DNA from: Oscillospiraceae bacterium
Lineage (GTDB): Bacteria > Bacillota > Clostridia > Oscillospirales > Oscillospiraceae
Direction: 5' to 3'
NCBI GenBank assembly: GCA_022846075.1
Contig: AP025582.1
Coordinates: forward strand, 1,612,001-1,676,000
DNA: 64,000 nt
Shown here: in pieces, positions 40,325 to 58,736 of the stretch
Layout: every line of letters begins with the position of its first letter
How positions within the stretch are numbered: the stretch's first letter is position 1
The notes under the pieces: model-generated
Told to the model about the DNA's origin: nothing
Databases searched by the model: none
What the model saw: the letters and a program-made list of their open reading frames with translations, nothing else
Position numbers and translations under genes: made by a program

Positions 40325-42373
40325 ATGGATCAGTACATAGGGAAATTACTCGACAATCGATATGAGATCCTGGAGCGCATCGGCATCGGCGGCATGGCTG
40401 TGGTCTATAAGGCCAAATGTCACTGGCTCAACCGGTTCGTGGCTGTGAAGATACTCAAGGAAGACCTGGCGCAGGACGAGGAGTTCCGCCGCCGGTTCCA
40501 CGAGGAATCCCAGGCCGTTGCCATGCTCTCCCATCCCAATATCGTCTCGGTGTACGACGTGTCCCGTTCCCCGGAGCTGGATTATATTGTCATGGAGCTG
40601 ATCGAGGGAATCACCCTGAAGCAGTACATGCAAAAGCGGGGCGGAAAGCTCTCCTGGAAGGAGTCACTCCACTTCATCACCCAGATCATGAAGGCGCTTT
40701 CCCACGCCCACAGCCGGGGCATCATCCACCGGGACATCAAGCCCCACAATATTATGGTCCTGCGGGATGGGAGCGTGAAGGTGGCCGATTTCGGCATCGC
40801 CCGCCTGGTCTCCGCCTCCCAGAACACCATGACTCAGGAGGCCCTGGGCTCGGTGCACTATATCTCCCCGGAGCAGGCCCGGGGTAGCCGGATCGACGCC
40901 CGGAGCGATATCTACTCCGCCGGCGTGGTCCTCTATGAGATGCTCACCGGCCGTCTGCCCTACGAGGGGGATTCCCCGGTGTCGGTGGCCATTCAGCACA
41001 TCAACTCCATCCCGCTCTCTCCCAGGGAACTGGAGCCCTCCATCCCGGAGGCTATGGAGGAGATCACCATGAAAGCCATGGCCTCCGACATGGATAAGCG
41101 GTATCTCTCCGCCGACGCCATGCTGGCGGACCTGGAGGAATTTCGGAAAAATCCCAATATCAGCTTTGAGTATACCCCCGCCGATCTGCTGGTGGGGGAG
41201 GGAGACGAGCCCACCCAGGTCCTGGGGGCCAATACGCCCCAGATGGTGGCCGGCCGCCCGGTCCATACGGAGCGCTATGAGGAGCCCAAGGCCAAAAAGG
41301 AGCGGCCCGCACCGGTGCGGGAGCCCGCCGAGGACGAGGACGACTATGACAGCGACGGCGGGGGCAAACGGGCCTTGGTCATCGTCATCGCCCTGCTCCT
41401 GTGTGCGGCGGGGATCGGCGCCTTCCTGTGGGTCACCGTATTCAGCGGCATGACCGGCAATAAAACCTATACCGTCCCGAACCTGGAGGGCTACACCCTG
41501 GAAGAGGCCCGGGAGCTGCCGGAAATCAAGGAAAACGGCTTTACCATAGTTGAGGGCAAACAGGTCGTCAGCGAGACGGTGAAGGCCGGCCAGATCGCCT
41601 CCCAAACCCCTGCCGCCGAGAGCGCGGTCAAAGAAGGCAACCGGGAGATCTCCGTGGACATCAGCATCGGAAACGGCGGCCTCACCATGCCCGACGTCTA
41701 CAACCAGGATCAGCGGGTGGCCACGGCCACTCTGAACGGGATGGGCCTCCAGGTCAATGTAGAGCAGTCCAACTCCTCCGAGATCACCAAGGGCAACGTG
41801 ATGTCCCAGTCCCCGGCGAAGGGAGAGCGCGTGAAGGAGGGCCAGGAGGTCACCATCGTGGTCAGCCTGGGCGTGGATGTGGATCAGGTCACCTTGATCC
41901 CGCTGACCGGAATGACCCTGGAAAAGGCGACCCAGGCCGTCACCGACCTGGGCCTGAAGCTGGGAAAGGTGGATCCGGTGCCCAGCGCGGAGTTTGAGGC
42001 TGGCCAGGTCTGCTATCAGAGCATTCCCGTGGGGACGTCCGTCCCCGCCGATACGGTCATCAACCTTCAGGTCAGTACCGGCCCCGATACCGGGGCGCCC
42101 ACGGAATCCGAAACCCCTGCGGAGTCCGTTTCGCCGGAGCCCACGGCACAGCCCACCACCAAGCGCAAGGATGTGGTCGTCCCCCTGCCGGATGACCGGG
42201 AGACCGTCTATGTGCGGATCACCGTGGGCGGGGTGGAGCAGATCCCCAGCCAGCCGGTGGACACCCGGATCAGGCAGGCCCGCTTCACGCTGGAGGGCAC
42301 CGGGACCCAGCAGATCGTGGTCTATATCGACGAGGTGCAGACCCAGAGCTATGCCCTCAATTTTGACGAATGA
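40325..42373 (+). CDS. prkC: PASTA-domain serine/threonine kinase (PrkC/Stk)
   Basis: A membrane receptor kinase of 682 aa. The cytosolic kinase domain (about 12-275) has the ATP lysine K42, catalytic HRD (135-137) and DFG (155-157). A charged linker leads to one membrane helix (about 353-375), then three extracellular PASTA repeats (about 380-452, 453-520, 521-590) that bind muropeptides, and a Thr/Pro-rich segment with a small C-terminal beta domain. In Bacillus the homologue controls cell-wall growth and spore germination. Confidence 0.95.
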   Translation: MDQYIGKLLDNRYEILERIGIGGMAVVYKAKCHWLNRFVAVKILKEDLAQDEEFRRRFHEESQAVAMLSHPNIVSVYDVSRSPELDYIVMELIEGITLKQYMQKRGGKLSWKESLHFITQIMKALSHAHSRGIIHRDIKPHNIMVLRDGSVKVADFGIARLVSASQNTMTQEALGSVHYISPEQARGSRIDARSDIYSAGVVLYEMLTGRLPYEGDSPVSVAIQHINSIPLSPRELEPSIPEAMEEITMKAMASDMDKRYLSADAMLADLEEFRKNPNISFEYTPADLLVGEGDEPTQVLGANTPQMVAGRPVHTERYEEPKAKKERPAPVREPAEDEDDYDSDGGGKRALVIVIALLLCAAGIGAFLWVTVFSGMTGNKTYTVPNLEGYTLEEARELPEIKENGFTIVEGKQVVSETVKAGQIASQTPAAESAVKEGNREISVDISIGNGGLTMPDVYNQDQRVATATLNGMGLQVNVEQSNSSEITKGNVMSQSPAKGERVKEGQEVTIVVSLGVDVDQVTLIPLTGMTLEKATQAVTDLGLKLGKVDPVPSAEFEAGQVCYQSIPVGTSVPADTVINLQVSTGPDTGAPTESETPAESVSPEPTAQPTTKRKDVVVPLPDDRETVYVRITVGGVEQIPSQPVDTRIRQARFTLEGTGTQQIVVYIDEVQTQSYALNFDE

Positions 42374-43254
42374 GCATGGAAGGGATCATTTTTAAAGCCC
42401 TCTCCGGCTTCTATTACGTGGACTGCGGCGGCCAGACCGTCACCTGCCGGGCCCGGGGGAAATTCCGCCATGAAAAGATAAAGCCGCTGGTGGGGGACCG
42501 GGTCTCCGTCACGGTCCAGGCGGGCGGGTCGGGCACGGTGGATACCGTTCTGCCCCGAAAAAACGAGTTTCAGCGGCCGGCGGTTGCCAATATCGATCTG
42601 TTGGTGGTGGTGGCCTCCGGCGCCGTCCCGGTGACGGATCCCTTCCTCATTGACCGTGTGGTGGCCATGGCGGAGCGCCGGGGCTGTGAAAGCGTGATCT
42701 GCTTCAACAAGTGGGATCTGGAGCAGCCCCAGGGGCTCTTTGAGACATATCAGAAAGCCGGTTTTCCCACCCTCCGGGTGAGCGCGGAGACCGGGGAGGG
42801 GATCGATGCCCTCTCCACACTAATTGCCAAAAAGGTATGTGCCTTTACAGGGAATTCCGGCGTGGGCAAATCCAGCATCCTGAACGCTCTGGAGCCGGGG
42901 TTCCACCTCCAGGTGGGGGACGTCAGCGACAAGCTGGGCCGGGGGCGGCACACCACCCGTCACGTGGAGCTCTACCGTCTGAAAAACGGCGCAGTTGTGG
43001 CCGACACCCCGGGATTTTCTTCCTTTGAGGAGGAGACCGGCGTGGGCTGCGGCCCGGAAGAGGTCCAGTATGCCTTCCGGGAGTTTGCCCCCTATCTGGA
43101 CCGGTGCAGGTTTGTGGGCTGCGCCCATGTAAAGGAAAAAGGCTGTGCGGTGCTGGAGGCCCTGGCGGCCGGGAAGATTGCCCAAAGCCGGCACGACAGC
43201 TACGTCCGGCTCTACGAACAGGCCAAGGAGGTGCCCGAATGGGAACGGAAATGA
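42370..43254 (+). CDS. rsgA: Ribosome small subunit-dependent GTPase RsgA
   Basis: A late 30S assembly GTPase with circularly permuted G motifs, 294 aa. An N-terminal OB fold is followed by NKWDLEQ (G4), GNSGVGKSS (G1), DTPGFSS (G3) and the C-terminal zinc finger (C-x4-C-x-H-x5-C in the RFVGCAHVKEKGC region). It overlaps prkC by four bases and thiN by 16 bases. Confidence 0.95.
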   Translation: MSMEGIIFKALSGFYYVDCGGQTVTCRARGKFRHEKIKPLVGDRVSVTVQAGGSGTVDTVLPRKNEFQRPAVANIDLLVVVASGAVPVTDPFLIDRVVAMAERRGCESVICFNKWDLEQPQGLFETYQKAGFPTLRVSAETGEGIDALSTLIAKKVCAFTGNSGVGKSSILNALEPGFHLQVGDVSDKLGRGRHTTRHVELYRLKNGAVVADTPGFSSFEEETGVGCGPEEVQYAFREFAPYLDRCRFVGCAHVKEKGCAVLEALAAGKIAQSRHDSYVRLYEQAKEVPEWERK

Positions 43255-43886
43255 CCGCCCTCATTTTCGGCTCCATCCCTTCCGAGGGCTGGGATTATCT
43301 GAAAACCTACTGCCCGGCTCCCGGACTGGTGATCTGCGCGGACGGCGGGATCAAGTGCGCCAGGGAGGCGGGGTATGCTCCGGACCTTCTGGTGGGGGAC
43401 TGGGACTCGGGCGGCGGGCCGGAAGAGGGGATCCCCTCCGTCACCCTGCCTCCGGAGAAGGACCTGACCGATCTCCAGGCGGCCGCGGAGCTGGCCTTGG
43501 AGCGTGGATTCCGGCAGATCGTCTTTTGTGCCTGCGTGGGTGGGCGGCTGGATCAGACCGCCGCCAACCTGACCCTTTTGGAGTGGGTCCATGACCATGG
43601 GGGAGAGGCTAAAATCCTGGATACAGGCAACGAGGTCCGCTTTTGGGACGGCAGTCCCCTGACCCTGGACAGGGACACCGGTTACCGCTATCTCTCTCTG
43701 GTCCCGCTGGACCGCACCATCACGGGGGTCCGTCTGCGGGGGGTAAAGTACCCCTTGACGAACGCCACGTTGACCCGGGGGGACACCCTCTCCATCAGCA
43801 ACGAGGTGTCCGGGCCACAGGCCATTCTCTCCGCGGACACCGGGCGTATGCTGGTCATTCGCAGTCAGAAATACACGGAAAAGTGA
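43239..43886 (+). CDS. thiN: Thiamine diphosphokinase
   Basis: Transfers pyrophosphate from ATP to thiamine; 215 aa. The signature ADGGIKCAREAGYAPDLLVGD with WDS is present, then PPEKDLTDLQAA and the C-terminal beta domain ending LRGVKYPL and SISNEVSG. The ATG at 43239 lies inside rsgA and has an AAGGAGG SD at 43225-43231. In Bacillus rpe lies between rsgA and thiN; it is absent here. Confidence 0.9.
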   Translation: MGTEMTALIFGSIPSEGWDYLKTYCPAPGLVICADGGIKCAREAGYAPDLLVGDWDSGGGPEEGIPSVTLPPEKDLTDLQAAAELALERGFRQIVFCACVGGRLDQTAANLTLLEWVHDHGGEAKILDTGNEVRFWDGSPLTLDRDTGYRYLSLVPLDRTITGVRLRGVKYPLTNATLTRGDTLSISNEVSGPQAILSADTGRMLVIRSQKYTEK

Positions 43887-43959
43887 ATCATAAGGCGCAG
43901 AACCAACGGCCGCTCTCTTTCGTATACTGGGGTATCCAGGAAGAAAGGGGGCGGCTTTT

Positions 43960-44130
43960 TTGCTGTCGGATGAGATGAAACGGAATTTAGGTCTGGCCGC
44001 GGCCTGTACCGGAGGGGTAGCCGTGCTGCTGTTTCCCGCCAGTCTGGTCACGTTGGGACTGGGCGTGGCGCTGGGCTATAAGGGCCAGGACTACATCAAG
44101 TCTCTGCTGGGGGGAGGTGAGGGAAAGTGA
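43960..44130 (+). CDS. Small hydrophobic protein coupled to spoVM (56 aa)
   Basis: A short ORF that starts with TTG eight bases after AAAGGGGG (43944-43951). It begins LLSDEMKRNLGLAAACTGG, has one long hydrophobic stretch (about residues 10-38, rich in Ala, Gly, Val and Leu), then YKGQDYIKSLLGGG. An internal ATG at 43975 could also be used. The stop overlaps the GTG of spoVM (GTGA), the usual sign of translational coupling. I recognise no family. It may be a sporulation membrane peptide acting with SpoVM; this is inference from position. Confidence 0.6.
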   Translation: MLSDEMKRNLGLAAACTGGVAVLLFPASLVTLGLGVALGYKGQDYIKSLLGGGEGK

Positions 44131-44198
44131 AGATCGTCGTGGTAAAGTCCCCGAAGGCCCTGCGCGGGATCCTGAAAAGCATCTTTGGTTTAAAGTAG
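44127..44198 (+). CDS. spoVM: Stage V sporulation protein M (SpoVM), 23 aa
   Basis: A 23-residue amphipathic peptide, MKIVVVKSPKALRGILKSIFGLK. Against Bacillus SpoVM it keeps K2, K7, the helix-bending P9, K10, L12, G14, I15 and G21. SpoVM senses the convex outer forespore membrane and recruits SpoIVA. Synteny agrees: thiN-spoVM is the Bacillus order too. The start is GTG with the SD GGAGGTGAGG (44113-44122). It lies about 1.6 kb before spoIVA. Although far below usual gene-length cut-offs, identity is well supported by residues and position. Confidence 0.88.
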   Translation: MKIVVVKSPKALRGILKSIFGLK

Positions 44199-44211
44199 AC
44201 TTTCCAAAATG

Positions 44212-44241
44212 ACATACCGGTCCACCCTTGTACATATAAAT
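44212..44241 (+). promoter_or_regulatory. Possible sigma-E (mother-cell) promoter of sipL-spoIVA
   Basis: ACATACC (44212-44218), a 14-bp spacer and CATATAAAT (44233-44241) resemble the sigma-E pattern (KMATATT, 13-15 bp, CATACAnT) at the right spacing, about 50 bases before the sipL start. The -35 match is partial. No sigma-A promoter is seen in this 92-bp gap. Confidence 0.35.
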
Positions 44242-44290
44242 GCACAGAAGAAACGAGGCGGGATGCCTGTACAAGGAGTGGAACACGCTT

Positions 44291-45817
44291 ATGGAATTAG
44301 AATTGGACAGGACGCAGATGAATGGTTATGATGCCCTGCTGGACACTACCCTGCTCCGGGAAGAGACCCTGGAGATGATCGTGCCGGACGCCTGCCCCGA
44401 CATCCTTCGGGTCGTGGAGACCGATGGAAAGGTCCTTCTACGCAGCAAGGAGGCCATGGAAGGGCGGGTGGAGATCTCCGGGACCTTTAAGGCTTGCGTG
44501 CTTTATCTCCCCGACGGGGAGAGCGGTCTGCGGCACCTGGAGGTCTCCATCCCCTTCACGTGCAGCGCCGAGGGGCGGGAGATCGGCCCCAGCTGCAACG
44601 TGGTGGCCAGCCTCCGGCTGCACCATGCCGACACCAGGGCGGTGAATCCCCGCAAAGTCCTGGTGCGGGCGGAAGCGGCCGTGGATGTGGCCGTCTACGC
44701 TCCCATGACGGAAAGTGTCTGCGGTCAAGTGCTGGACGCGGCGGAGCAGAGCGTGGAACAGCTCACCGAGACACGGGAGGTCTATGTCACCGCCTGTGTC
44801 CAGGAAAAGCCCTTCTCGCTCTCCGACGAGGTGGCTCTCTCCGCCAGCAAGCCGGCGGCCGCGGAACTGCTCAAAAGCCGGATGGAGCTGTGCCGGGGGG
44901 AGTCCAAGATCATTGGGAACAAGCTCATTTTCAAAGGGAGCGCCAACGTCAGCCTTTTCTACCGGGGAGAGGATGACGGCGTATATTCCTCCTCGGCGGA
45001 GCTGCCCTTCTCCCAGATCATGGAGGTCTCCGGGGTGGGGGAGAGCGCGGAGTGCGACCTGTCCTTCACCCTGACCGGCGCCAGCTGTTCCCTTGATTCC
45101 GGAGGGGACGGGCGGACCGTGTCGGTCTCTCTGGAAGCGCTGTCCCAGTCGGTGGTGCGGGAATCCAGGATGCTGGAAGTCCTGAGCGACGCGTACAGCA
45201 CCAGCCAGCCCATGGCGGCGGACTGGGAGAATTACCCCATGTCCGAGCGCGTGGACCGGGGTGTCCGCAGCCAGAGCGTCCGGGAGGTCTGGGAGACCGG
45301 CGGCCCCATCCGGGACGTGTTGGACTGCCGCCTGGCGGTGGGCCAAATCGTGAAAAGCAGGGAGGGGGAGCGGATGGTCCTCACCGCCCAGGTGGAGGTG
45401 ACCGCCCTCTATATCGGAGAGGACGGGGGCCTTTACTCCGCCCAGCGGCAGATGAGTGTGCCCTGCGCCCTGGACCTCCCGGAGGAGAGCCAGTGCTTCT
45501 GCCAGTGCGAGGGGGTGGGAGATGTCTACGCCACCCCAGCCGCCGGAGGCATCGAGGCCCGGTTCACCCTGGACTTCCGTTACTGCGCCACGGCACGGCG
45601 GCAGATCACGGCCCTTTCCGCCCTCCGTCCGGCCGAGGCGGTGGAGGTGGAGGGTCCCCAGCCCTCCCTGGTGCTGCGGATGCTGGAGGGGGGAGAGCGG
45701 CTGTGGGATGTGGCGAAGGCTTACGGCACCACCATCGCCGACATCATGAGCGCCAATGAATTGGCAGACGAGGCCGCCGCCATGGGCAGGCTCCTGCTCA
45801 TTCCCAGGAAGCGGTAA
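44291..45817 (+). CDS. sipL: SipL-type spore coat morphogenetic protein (DUF3794 repeats + LysM)
   Basis: A 508-aa protein with repeated DUF3794 domains (about 30-130, 170-280 and 335-440) and a C-terminal LysM domain (about 465-507: LWDVAKAYGTTIADIM, then LLLIPRK). This is the architecture of C. difficile SipL, which binds SpoIVA through its LysM domain and is essential for coat attachment; it is the functional counterpart of Bacillus SpoVID. The chosen ATG has AAGGAG 12 bases upstream. spoIVA begins 13 bases after the stop, so the partners are co-transcribed. Confidence 0.88.
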   Translation: MELELDRTQMNGYDALLDTTLLREETLEMIVPDACPDILRVVETDGKVLLRSKEAMEGRVEISGTFKACVLYLPDGESGLRHLEVSIPFTCSAEGREIGPSCNVVASLRLHHADTRAVNPRKVLVRAEAAVDVAVYAPMTESVCGQVLDAAEQSVEQLTETREVYVTACVQEKPFSLSDEVALSASKPAAAELLKSRMELCRGESKIIGNKLIFKGSANVSLFYRGEDDGVYSSSAELPFSQIMEVSGVGESAECDLSFTLTGASCSLDSGGDGRTVSVSLEALSQSVVRESRMLEVLSDAYSTSQPMAADWENYPMSERVDRGVRSQSVREVWETGGPIRDVLDCRLAVGQIVKSREGERMVLTAQVEVTALYIGEDGGLYSAQRQMSVPCALDLPEESQCFCQCEGVGDVYATPAAGGIEARFTLDFRYCATARRQITALSALRPAEAVEVEGPQPSLVLRMLEGGERLWDVAKAYGTTIADIMSANELADEAAAMGRLLLIPRKR

Positions 45818-45830
45818 GGGGGAGAGGAAA

Positions 45831-47309
45831 ATGGAAGAAAATAAGCTCTACGACGATATTGCCCAGCGCACGGGCGGAGATATCTACATCGGTGTGGTGG
45901 GGCCGGTCCGCACGGGCAAGTCCACCTTCATCAAGCGGTTCATGGAGACTCTGGTCATCCCCAACATCGAGAACGTCTACCGGCGGGAGCGGGCCCGTGA
46001 CGAGCTGCCCCAGAGCGGTTCGGGCCGGACGGTGATGACCGCCGAGCCCAAATTCGTGCCCGAGGAGGCCGTCCGGGTGGATATGGCCGACGGGGCCTCC
46101 TTCGCCGTCCGCCTCATCGACTGCGTGGGCTATATGGTCCCCGGCGCCGTGGGCCAGACCGAGGACGACGCCCCGCGGATGGTGACCACCCCCTGGTATG
46201 ACCACGACATCCCCATGACCGAGGCTGCGGAGATCGGGACGAGAAAGGTCATCGCCGAGCACTCCACCATCGGCATCGTGGTCACCACCGACGGGACCAT
46301 CACCGACATCCCCCGGGAGGACTACATCGAGGCGGAGGAGCGGGTCATTACCGAGCTCAAGGAGCTGGGCAAGCCCTTCCTGGTCCTCCTGAACTCGGCC
46401 TATCCCCAGTCCGACCGGGCCAAGGCTATCCAGGCCGACATTATGGACCGCTACGACGTGACCTGTATGCGCTGCAACTGCCTGGAGCTGGATGAGGAGG
46501 ACGTCACTTCCATCATCAAAGGGGTCCTCTATGAGTTCCCCGTCAAGGAGCTGGACCTTTTCCTCCCCCCCTGGGTGGACGCCCTGCCCTATGACCACCC
46601 CATCAAAAACGGCCTCTACGCCGCCATCCGGGAGGGCTCGGCGGAGATGCGGCGGGTCCGGGACGTGGATGGGGCCATGGCGGCCATCGGCGCCTGTGAG
46701 AGCGTCAGCAGCGCCAGAGTGACCACCATCAACCTAGGCGCCGGTCTGGCTGCTGCCACCCTGGACCTGCCCAGGAGCCTCTTTTACGATACCATCTCGG
46801 CCCAGTCCGGCTTTACGATCGCGGACGATGGGGATCTCATGAGCCTGCTCACCGATTTGGCCAGCGTGAAACGGGAGTACGACAAGGTGGCCCAGGCCCT
46901 TCAGGAGGTCCGGGAGACGGGCTACGGCATTGTGGCCCCCAGCCCGGAGGAGCTGAAGCTGGAGGAGCCGGAGATCGTCAAGCAGGGGGGCCGCTACGGC
47001 GTGCGCCTGAAGGCTTCCGCCCCCAGCATCCATATGATCCGGGCGGACATCGAGACCGAGGTGTCCCCCATCGTGGGCAGCGAGAAGCAGTCGGAGGAGA
47101 TGGTGGGCTATCTGCTCCAGGAGTTCGAGGGAGACACGGCCAAGATCTGGGACTCCAACATCTTCGGAAAATCCTTCCATGAACTGGTGGGGGAGGATTT
47201 GAACACCAAGCTCAAGCGGATGCCGGACGACGCCCGGGAAAAACTCCGGGAGACCCTGCAAAGGGTCATCAACGAGGGCTCCGGCGGGCTCATCTGCATT
47301 ATCCTGTAA
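45831..47309 (+). CDS. spoIVA: Stage IV sporulation protein A (SpoIVA)
   Basis: The ATPase that polymerises on the forespore surface to form the basal coat layer. The length of 492 aa equals Bacillus SpoIVA. Walker A GPVRTGKS is at 24-31; the GTPase-like fold has DCVGYMVPGA and TTDGTITDIPREDY. The C-terminus, which contacts SpoVM, ends GSGGLICIIL. The ATG follows a GGGGAGAGG SD; the frame is open upstream but only inside sipL. Together with spoVM and sipL it forms a complete coat-nucleation module. Confidence 0.97.
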   Translation: MEENKLYDDIAQRTGGDIYIGVVGPVRTGKSTFIKRFMETLVIPNIENVYRRERARDELPQSGSGRTVMTAEPKFVPEEAVRVDMADGASFAVRLIDCVGYMVPGAVGQTEDDAPRMVTTPWYDHDIPMTEAAEIGTRKVIAEHSTIGIVVTTDGTITDIPREDYIEAEERVITELKELGKPFLVLLNSAYPQSDRAKAIQADIMDRYDVTCMRCNCLELDEEDVTSIIKGVLYEFPVKELDLFLPPWVDALPYDHPIKNGLYAAIREGSAEMRRVRDVDGAMAAIGACESVSSARVTTINLGAGLAAATLDLPRSLFYDTISAQSGFTIADDGDLMSLLTDLASVKREYDKVAQALQEVRETGYGIVAPSPEELKLEEPEIVKQGGRYGVRLKASAPSIHMIRADIETEVSPIVGSEKQSEEMVGYLLQEFEGDTAKIWDSNIFGKSFHELVGEDLNTKLKRMPDDAREKLRETLQRVINEGSGGLICIIL

Positions 47310-47311
47310 TG

Positions 47312-47349
47312 AAACAGCGGGGAGACGAAATTTCGTCTCCCCGCTGTTT
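47312..47349. terminator. Bidirectional terminator between spoIVA and the DMT transporter
   Basis: A perfect 38-base palindrome: AAACAGCGGGGAGACGAAA (47312-47330) followed directly by its reverse complement (47331-47349). T-rich sequence lies on both sides. It serves the two convergent genes. Confidence 0.9.
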
Positions 47350-47356
47350 TGATTTG

Positions 47357-58524: not shown

Positions 58525-58736
58525 GATTCCCCCGCCACAGCCGTGTGGACTCATTTAAAACCTGCACGTCTCCGGCAGGTGGGTCGCCTCCACGTCGCTT
58601 TACCGCTTCCAACTTCCAGCCCAAGGGCCGGGAGGCCTGCGACCCGCTAAGTGAGTGGGCGTCCCGTTTCATAAATGTGGGTTTAAATAAAGCCCATCAC
58701 GCACCAGGCAGGGGAGAGCCATATGCGGAGGGAATC
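58525..58736 (-). ncRNA. ssrS: Structured RNA of about 210 nt, probable 6S RNA
   Basis: No protein is encoded here, yet the minus strand folds into one long irregular rod. The ends pair (GATTCCC with GGGAATC), GCC/GGC and ATTTAAAC/GTTTTAAAT continue the closing stem, a large open central region follows, and GGGTCG/CGACCC plus CCTCC/GGAGG form the apical stem with a GCCC-TT-GGGC tip. The 3' side of the bubble can form CCTGC/GCAGG, as in known 6S RNAs. 6S RNA mimics an open promoter and holds sigma-A RNA polymerase. Proximity to tcdA agrees with Bacillus. No clear promoter of its own; it may be processed from the DUF1292 mRNA. Confidence 0.55.

Follow-up and report, generated by a model that had tools for sequence, protein, structure and literature searches.

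The window analysed here is a stretch of 64,000 nucleotides (nt) from Oscillospiraceae bacterium (GenBank assembly GCA_022846075.1, contig AP025582.1, positions 1,612,001–1,676,000 of a 3.23-Mb single-contig genome). It carries a compact spore-coat locus in which spoVM, a sipL-type gene and spoIVA lie side by side, directly preceded by a fourth gene that encodes a small membrane protein, here called the hairpin. It is the positional counterpart of a conserved, unannotated small protein whose gene accompanies spoVM in many genomes of the phylum and whose function is putative. We regard the locus, with a little better than even confidence, as a four-gene coat-basement nucleation unit in two adjoining mother-cell transcription units. 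An earlier sequence-only reading of the window had described a three-gene unit of spoVM, the SipL-type gene and spoIVA. All three are present and contiguous, with spoIVA starting 13 bases after the sipL stop, and spoVM is indeed easily missed, being 23 codons long and one bit under the NCBIfam cut-off; the unit nevertheless has four genes, as a 56-codon open reading frame (ORF) starting at 43960, the first position of the region that reading had singled out, went unmentioned. The four genes are

43960..44130, + strand: unannotated small membrane-hairpin gene, 56 amino acids (aa), TTG start (from substitution rates, kin alignment and profile)
44127..44198, + strand: spoVM, 23 aa, GTG start at 44127, stop ending at 44198 (NF033436, expectation value E 3.7e-7)
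44294..45817, + strand: sipL-type gene, ATG at 44294 (PF12673, E 2.3e-29; PF01476, E 8.3e-6)
45831..47309, + strand: spoIVA, 492 aa (TIGR02836, 722.6 bits)

A small membrane protein encoded upstream of spoVM

The 56-codon ORF overlaps spoVM by four bases. ORFs of its kin occupy the same slot, and in one of them (L205) an ATG aligns with the TTG start of the window; a purine-rich ribosome site lies 5' of the start, which in L205 reads AGGAGG. Compared with four close kin, the ratio of nonsynonymous to synonymous substitution (dN/dS) is 0.14–0.23, with synonymous differences of 0.51–0.68 per site, near saturation. The window ORF is under purifying selection and hence coding.

The protein has a basic tail, an uncharged core and a charged tail. 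The core (median 31 residues in the subtype of the window, 31.5 outside it) is short for two full membrane helices, and the protein is therefore named a hairpin. We define the spoVM-linked hairpin family as proteins of about 45–65 aa with a hydrophobic core, a Pro turn and a Gly near the end, encoded directly 5' of spoVM or sipL; the window ORF has this position and architecture, with P26 and G42. Both residues are invariant in a 33-row alignment (A1) and conserved at 90% or more in another of 30 rows (A3), although the rows of A1 were hand-chosen and several Pro-less members omitted, so that the invariance of P26 partly reflects this choice; in eight of 93 distinct hairpin candidates the final 40 residues contain no Pro.

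The window protein has no match in Pfam or NCBIfam at E ≤ 1. The best match of any member of the family has an E of 0.0027 in Pfam and 0.0053 in NCBIfam, and no family in either database covers the hairpin convincingly; a PDB sequence search gave no credible relative. A genome-wide search with the hairpin profile, which includes the window row, finds the window ORF with an E of 1.6e-11.

Linkage of the hairpin to spoVM

Selected by hydrophobicity alone, an ORF of this kind has its stop immediately upstream of 100 of 170 spoVM starts (four of the 100 being unrelated proteins), compared with 151 of 5,484 random positions (2.8%). Such an ORF precedes none of 18 rsgA starts, none of 11 thiN starts, 2/38 sipL starts and 5/81 spoIVA starts. 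Those before spoVM at L170, L173, L174, L175, L176, L180 and L191 seem to be different proteins; all seven remain in a count of 111/172 and four of them in the 100/170, and they are absent from the order-only profile and the overlap counts. This profile was made from 70 distinct sequences of the order (Oscillospirales) and run on every frame of 30 aa or more in the collected loci (46,425 frames). At E ≤ 1e-4 it matches this position upstream of spoVM in 97 loci, including 15 that belong to other orders and had no part in training, and none of the 46,425 frames gave a match away from spoVM; two matches first scored as lying elsewhere (L148 and L200) sit just 5' of weakly scoring spoVM peptides.

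At the level of whole genomes, 125 of 197 from the order match the hairpin profile at E ≤ 0.01, with the best match 10–152 nt before a listed spoVM place in 77. These comprise 49 directly before a strong NF033436 place and 28 before a weaker one; the other 48 have no listed spoVM adjoining. Among the 49 genomes that combine a strong spoVM with a hairpin match, the best hairpin match never lies elsewhere. Hairpin matches also go with the presence of spoIVA, being found in 123/187 genomes that have this gene versus 2/10 that do not (Fisher P 0.005). A scan of the phylum gave matches in 55/299 genomes, and a SpoVM-like peptide lies directly downstream in 26 of the 30 loci returned; the 30 include the window's own locus and a training genome (G010), and of the peptides three were recognized by eye and three at E 0.015–0.067. 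The matches at L298, L300, L303 and L312 are chance ones in longer frames.

The hairpin next to sipL without SpoVM

From the 48 genomes with a hairpin match and no listed spoVM, 20 loci were fetched. In 12 a SpoVM-like peptide follows the hairpin, some without the usual Pro and some found by eye only. The other eight have no such peptide there, and in seven of them (L313, L314, L316, L318, L325, L328 and L329) the next gene is sipL, after a gap of 18 to about 420 nt. These seven genomes carry sipL and spoIVA, and the broader SpoVM profile gave nothing in them better than partial matches at E 0.085, although they are drafts (92–100% complete) in which a spoVM could lie in a gap. The hairpin thus seems to outlive SpoVM next to sipL.

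This arrangement argues against the ORF being a mere leader of spoVM, that is, a translational device that couples or tunes spoVM translation and whose peptide sequence is irrelevant. The stop and start overlap by up to four bases in 14 of the 19 distinct sequences of the subtype, the window included, and 11 of the 19 have a TTG start, as might be expected of a leader. A leader does not account for the amino-acid constraint or for the fixed places of Pro and Gly, and outside the subtype the overlap is found in only 1/74 sequences, 70/74 ending 0–60 nt before spoVM. We give this explanation little credence.

The same loci bear on a role in the turnover or quality control of SpoVM and SpoIVA at the membrane, for instance together with FtsH, as a clostridial counterpart of the CmpA checkpoint. 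FtsH degrades SpoVM in Bacillus, and small membrane peptides often regulate membrane proteases, which we count in favour of such a role together with the co-location of the hairpin and spoVM. The hairpin gene persists where SpoVM is not found, and its similarity to CmpA is limited to one chance-level match (E 0.26), making a turnover role improbable.

Distribution and origin of the cluster

We took 80 spoIVA neighbourhoods from the 187 genomes of the order with a spoIVA match, a non-random choice of all 20 of the window's family in the sample and 60 across other families, which with the window makes 81 loci. In 42 of these, a sipL gene on the spoIVA strand stops 400 nt or less from spoIVA. In 26, spoVM (within 3.2 kb), sipL and spoIVA are all on one strand, and in three more spoVM is adjacent but divergent. 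The trio loci fall into six families of the order (f1, f2, f6, f11, f13 and f21), and 21 of the 26 have the hairpin. Mapped onto a tree of SpoIVA, the label for the trio (29 rows, the divergent loci counted in) requires 11 changes compared with 23.9 for shuffled labels, gain and loss being indistinguishable. Within this order, then, the cluster is an arrangement that recurs. Outside the order, none of 30 class-level loci has a sipL-like gene just 5' of spoIVA; these are the best scoring of 111 matching genomes among 147, and the SipL profile was derived from the order, so that very distant SipLs could be missed.

Five genomes (G003, G007, G055, G182 and G183) have a hairpin–spoVM pair and a sipL–spoIVA pair that lie apart. 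Because the pairs exist apart within the same genomes, the locus looks like a merger of the two. Clustering had previously been taken as support for a three-part complex of SpoVM, SipL and SpoIVA; the separate pairs, and the 39/81 loci without sipL beside spoIVA, speak against using it in this way.

It is scarcely credible that three known genes were joined by chance in one lineage, by ordinary rearrangement, and that the small ORF is spurious. The old neighbourhood of spoVM is prkC–rsgA–thiN (as in L131 and L113), and given this the adjacency of the second pair needs only one event; the arrangement also comes and goes, as the 11 changes show, and half of the named kin have no hairpin ORF. The spread of the trio over six families, its clustering on the tree and the constraint and spoVM linkage of the hairpin ORF all oppose a chance event.

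In four Flavonifractor loci (L034, L036, L038 and L044) the order rsgA–thiN–hairpin–spoVM–sipL is intact and spoIVA lies about 6.6 to 7.5 kb from sipL, on the opposite strand in two of the four.

Promoter-like blocks and transcription units

Two blocks stand 5' of the two gene pairs:

43921..43930, + strand: promoter-like block CGTATACTGG 5' of the hairpin ORF (single occurrence in 64 kb)
44213..44238, + strand: mother-cell (sigma-E-type) promoter-like block CATA-N16-CATATA (from the pattern and the kin gaps)

The block between spoVM and sipL is the only CATA-N16-CATATA in the window, where 0.03 are expected, and resembles the consensus of sigma-E promoters. CATA-N16-CATA is found in 48 of 73 distinct spoVM–sipL gaps versus 0.35 in shuffles, and other spacings are few: 15 in four gaps, 12 and 14 in one each and none at 13 or 17–20. 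The block CGTATACTGG, 29 nt before the hairpin start, is likewise expected 0.03 times in the 64 kb, and CGTATA(C/T)TG is present in all 16 aligned sequences 5' of the hairpin, the window included. The motif GTATACTGG occurs in 21/106 loci of the order versus 0.20 in shuffles and in 0/52 class loci, which makes it a feature of the order. A sigma-70 scan gave one site in the region, where 0.5 are expected, and was not used.

As the promoter-like CATA-N16-CATA block separates spoVM from sipL, two adjoining transcription units, hairpin–spoVM and sipL–spoIVA, appear likelier than one. The common mother-cell control that had been predicted for the three genes is thus too simple a picture, given the conservation of this block. 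According to PMC5607322, sigma-E controls spoVM, sipL and spoIVA in C. difficile and sipL and spoIVA are expressed 50–100 times more than spoVM, a difference that the predicted two units would fit.

Proposed role of the hairpin

SpoVM is established to embed in the forespore membrane and to bind SpoIVA. In the four-gene unit that we favour, the first transcription unit would supply a short integral membrane hairpin made together with SpoVM, their stop and start overlapping in the window, and both, being membrane-bound, would be placed in the outer forespore membrane. SpoVM would mark the convex membrane and the hairpin would provide a stable membrane base beside it. The second unit would supply, from its own promoter and in larger amounts, SpoIVA as a soluble ATPase polymer and SipL as its LysM partner, and the two would polymerise on the base formed by the hairpin and SpoVM; in C. 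difficile the LysM domain of SipL binds SpoIVA (PMC6436350). Gene order, coding constraint, conserved linkage and promoter-like blocks are shown by the sequences, and the membrane placement of the hairpin, its role, any contacts with the other three proteins and the transcription units themselves are inferred.

A bolder version, which we hold tentatively and think doubtful, makes the hairpin a fourth core component of the clostridial coat basement: a minimal hairpin that was passed on together with spoVM throughout the phylum, was joined to sipL–spoIVA in this order, and anchors SipL–SpoIVA to the outer forespore membrane even where SpoVM has been lost. If true, it would help to explain why SpoVM is essential in Bacillus yet nearly dispensable in C. 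difficile (PMC5607322 for the latter). In accounts of how clostridia attach the coat to the forespore a membrane contact is missing, and the hairpin, encoded with spoVM and retained next to sipL in genomes where no spoVM is found, is a concrete candidate for it.

Several observations weigh against the four-gene scheme. The dN/dS is weaker (0.28–0.82) in one related Flavonifractor group, and DUF6249 weakly matches 9 of 33 hairpin members (best E 0.013). Of 58 named kin loci that carry spoVM, the hairpin ORF is present in 29 and absent, by the criterion used, from 29, one of the latter, L230, having a profile match just beyond the distance limit; similarly, the hairpin profile matches nothing at E ≤ 0.01 in 36 of the 85 genomes of the order in which spoVM is strong. 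Some of these missing matches reflect divergence and some real absence, including in close kin (L033, L037, L043, L041 and L271). A hairpin profile built without the window's family detects 14 of that family's hairpins (E ≤ 1e-3) but misses the Flavonifractor/Pseudoflavonifractor subtype, to which the window copy belongs. In profile–profile comparison the subtype of the window matches the rest at chance level, with a score of 14.1 and an HH probability of 2.6%, where the best of 100 column shuffles scored 12.7 and a rotated decoy 16.1; L170, L173 and L191 are still in the template that gave this score. A first probability of 96 was dismissed, as the template held copies from the same subtype (L034, L036, L038, L044 and L042). 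By its identical slot, architecture and constraint, the window copy is a positional counterpart of the other hairpins and not a proven homologue. Lastly, TargeTron insertions in CD25622, a small gene upstream of spoVM in C. difficile, effectively give CD25622–spoVM doubles and have the same 3–5-fold defect as spoVM mutants alone (PMC5607322). Since the insertions are polar on spoVM and mimic its mutants, the contribution of CD25622 itself is small, if it is the same gene.

In seven kin (L033, L037, L043, L041, L046, L040 and L271) thiN is missing between rsgA and spoVM and the hairpin is missing too, as if both had been lost by one deletion; L035 is an exception.

Gene identities and flanking features

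The window peptide MKIVVVKSPKALRGILKSIFGLK carries P9, G14 and I15. It scores 30.0 bits with NCBIfam SpoVM_broad (NF033436), for which the annotation cut-off is 31, so that model-based annotation could miss spoVM as well, and was filed as SpoVM on its residues and position besides this score. It is the only NF033436 match in the genome at E ≤ 1, and a broader profile (A4), which includes the window row, matches it with an E of 3.1e-9. Pfam PF08183 misses spoVM in its own genome, where NF033436 and A4 detect it. A lack of conservation of the frame or of P9, G14 and I15 in relatives had been named beforehand as an outcome that would refute the earlier reading. This refutation fails: P9 is present in 145 and G14 in 94 of 149 distinct SpoVM sequences, while at position 15 there is I in 81 of them and L in 45. 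The profile used to gather these sequences is itself biased towards P9.

The SipL-type protein has three SPOCS (DUF3794, PF12673) stretches and a C-terminal LysM domain (residues 467–504). A longer alternative frame of the gene opens at 44240, and a search of the genome for a second SPOCS protein at E ≤ 0.001 found none. The TIGR02836 match of SpoIVA spans residues 1–492, well above the cut-off (459.9 bits), and the protein has three Pfam domains; its nearest named kin include an uncultured Pseudoflavonifractor (88%) and Flavonifractor plautii (83%), which makes membership of the Oscillospiraceae very probable.

The order on the + strand is rsgA, thiN, the 56-codon ORF, spoVM, the SipL-type gene, spoIVA and a terminator-like hairpin. 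The flanking features are

42370..43254, + strand: rsgA (PF03193, E 2.3e-50), context from the prkC–rsgA–thiN neighbourhood
43239..43886, + strand: thiN, thiamine pyrophosphokinase (TIGR01378, 133.6 bits), context directly 5' of the unit
47310..47351, + strand: terminator-like hairpin closing the unit, 19 pairs and then a T-rich tail (pattern match only)

An Rfam scan of the window gave only 6S RNA (58525–58717, − strand, 69.4 bits).

SpoVM variants and split spoIVA genes

The hairpin search also led to peptides resembling SpoVM in distant genomes, where the SpoVM profile itself performs weakly. In family f164, a hairpin and a SpoVM-like peptide are present in six genomes of a single genus (L284 and L286–L290); the one tested in this family, that of L287, scores 27.2 bits against the NCBIfam cut-off of 31. 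Such a peptide may be an example of the distant SpoVMs that PMC3533761 did not find, and finding SpoVM by way of the hairpin bears on whether distant SpoVMs were missed there. In family f21 there are SpoVM-like peptides without Pro9 (L103, L107, L108, L021 and L319–L323), which have Ser or, by eye, His or Lys in its place; PMC5607322 describes this Pro as fully conserved and as required for the recognition of curvature.

In four of the 147 class genomes searched, 111 of which gave a match, the spoIVA gene is split close to codon 400, with entries L363, L364, L365, L366 and L367 (from G313, G246 and G211) and G273. The genomes belong to f44 (twice), f37 and f47. In three genomes both pieces are on one strand, separated by 5.9, 39 and 22 kb, and in the fourth they are on two contigs. 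A large serine recombinase of 547–550 aa (Resolvase, Recombinase and zinc-ribbon domains) abuts the 3' piece in all three cases examined. The insertion looks like a skin-type element; the literature searched, PMC5025042 included, gave no description of such an element in spoIVA.

Comparison with known systems

The coat basement of Bacillus subtilis, SpoVM–SpoIVA–SpoVID, has in common with the window the SpoVM and SpoIVA orthologues and a third partner with LysM, which is SpoVID in Bacillus and SipL here. The spoVM, spoIVA and spoVID genes lie apart in B. subtilis, and in C. difficile sipL and spoIVA are at separate loci. The sequence-only reading had likewise placed these genes at separate loci in Bacillus and C. 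difficile. The spoVM gene of C. difficile lies near rpmB (PMC5607322). The C. difficile SipL–SpoIVA pair resembles that of the window in consisting of a DUF3794/SPOCS protein with a C-terminal LysM domain and SpoIVA (PMC6436350); the two genes are adjacent in the window, unlike in any of the 30 class-level spoIVA loci outside the order.

A close parallel to the first gene pair is CD25622–spoVM of C. difficile, a region under sigma-E control in which the gene for a small uncharacterized protein of 50 aa lies immediately 5' of spoVM and shares its transcript (PMC5607322). CD25622, a candidate counterpart of the hairpin, is described as unique to the Peptostreptococcaceae, and sipL and spoIVA are not described in that locus. 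Our search of the open-access literature found no description of the cluster or of the small gene beyond CD25622.

Another comparison is with SpoVQ (CD3457) of C. difficile, an outer-forespore-membrane protein tied to SipL and SpoIVA and a candidate functional analogue of the hairpin. As described in PMC8265636, it is a sigma-E-dependent, bitopic and family-specific membrane protein that binds SipL and SpoIVA. The hairpin could in the same way be a separate link between coat and cortex, binding SipL and SpoIVA, tuning the cortex and having little to do with SpoVM. Since SpoVQ is family-specific, other clostridia may use another protein, and some loci retain the hairpin next to sipL although spoVM is absent there. 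However, SpoVQ, which by its locus tag is encoded at a different locus, has a single transmembrane segment and binds through a soluble domain (PMC8265636), whereas the window protein is a putative two-helix hairpin of a family of about 50 aa without such a domain; the linkage of the hairpin to spoVM also extends outside the order, where sipL is unseen beside spoIVA. We consider a link of this kind unlikely. SpoVQ does show that the outer forespore membrane of clostridia holds additional proteins with SipL and SpoIVA as binding partners.

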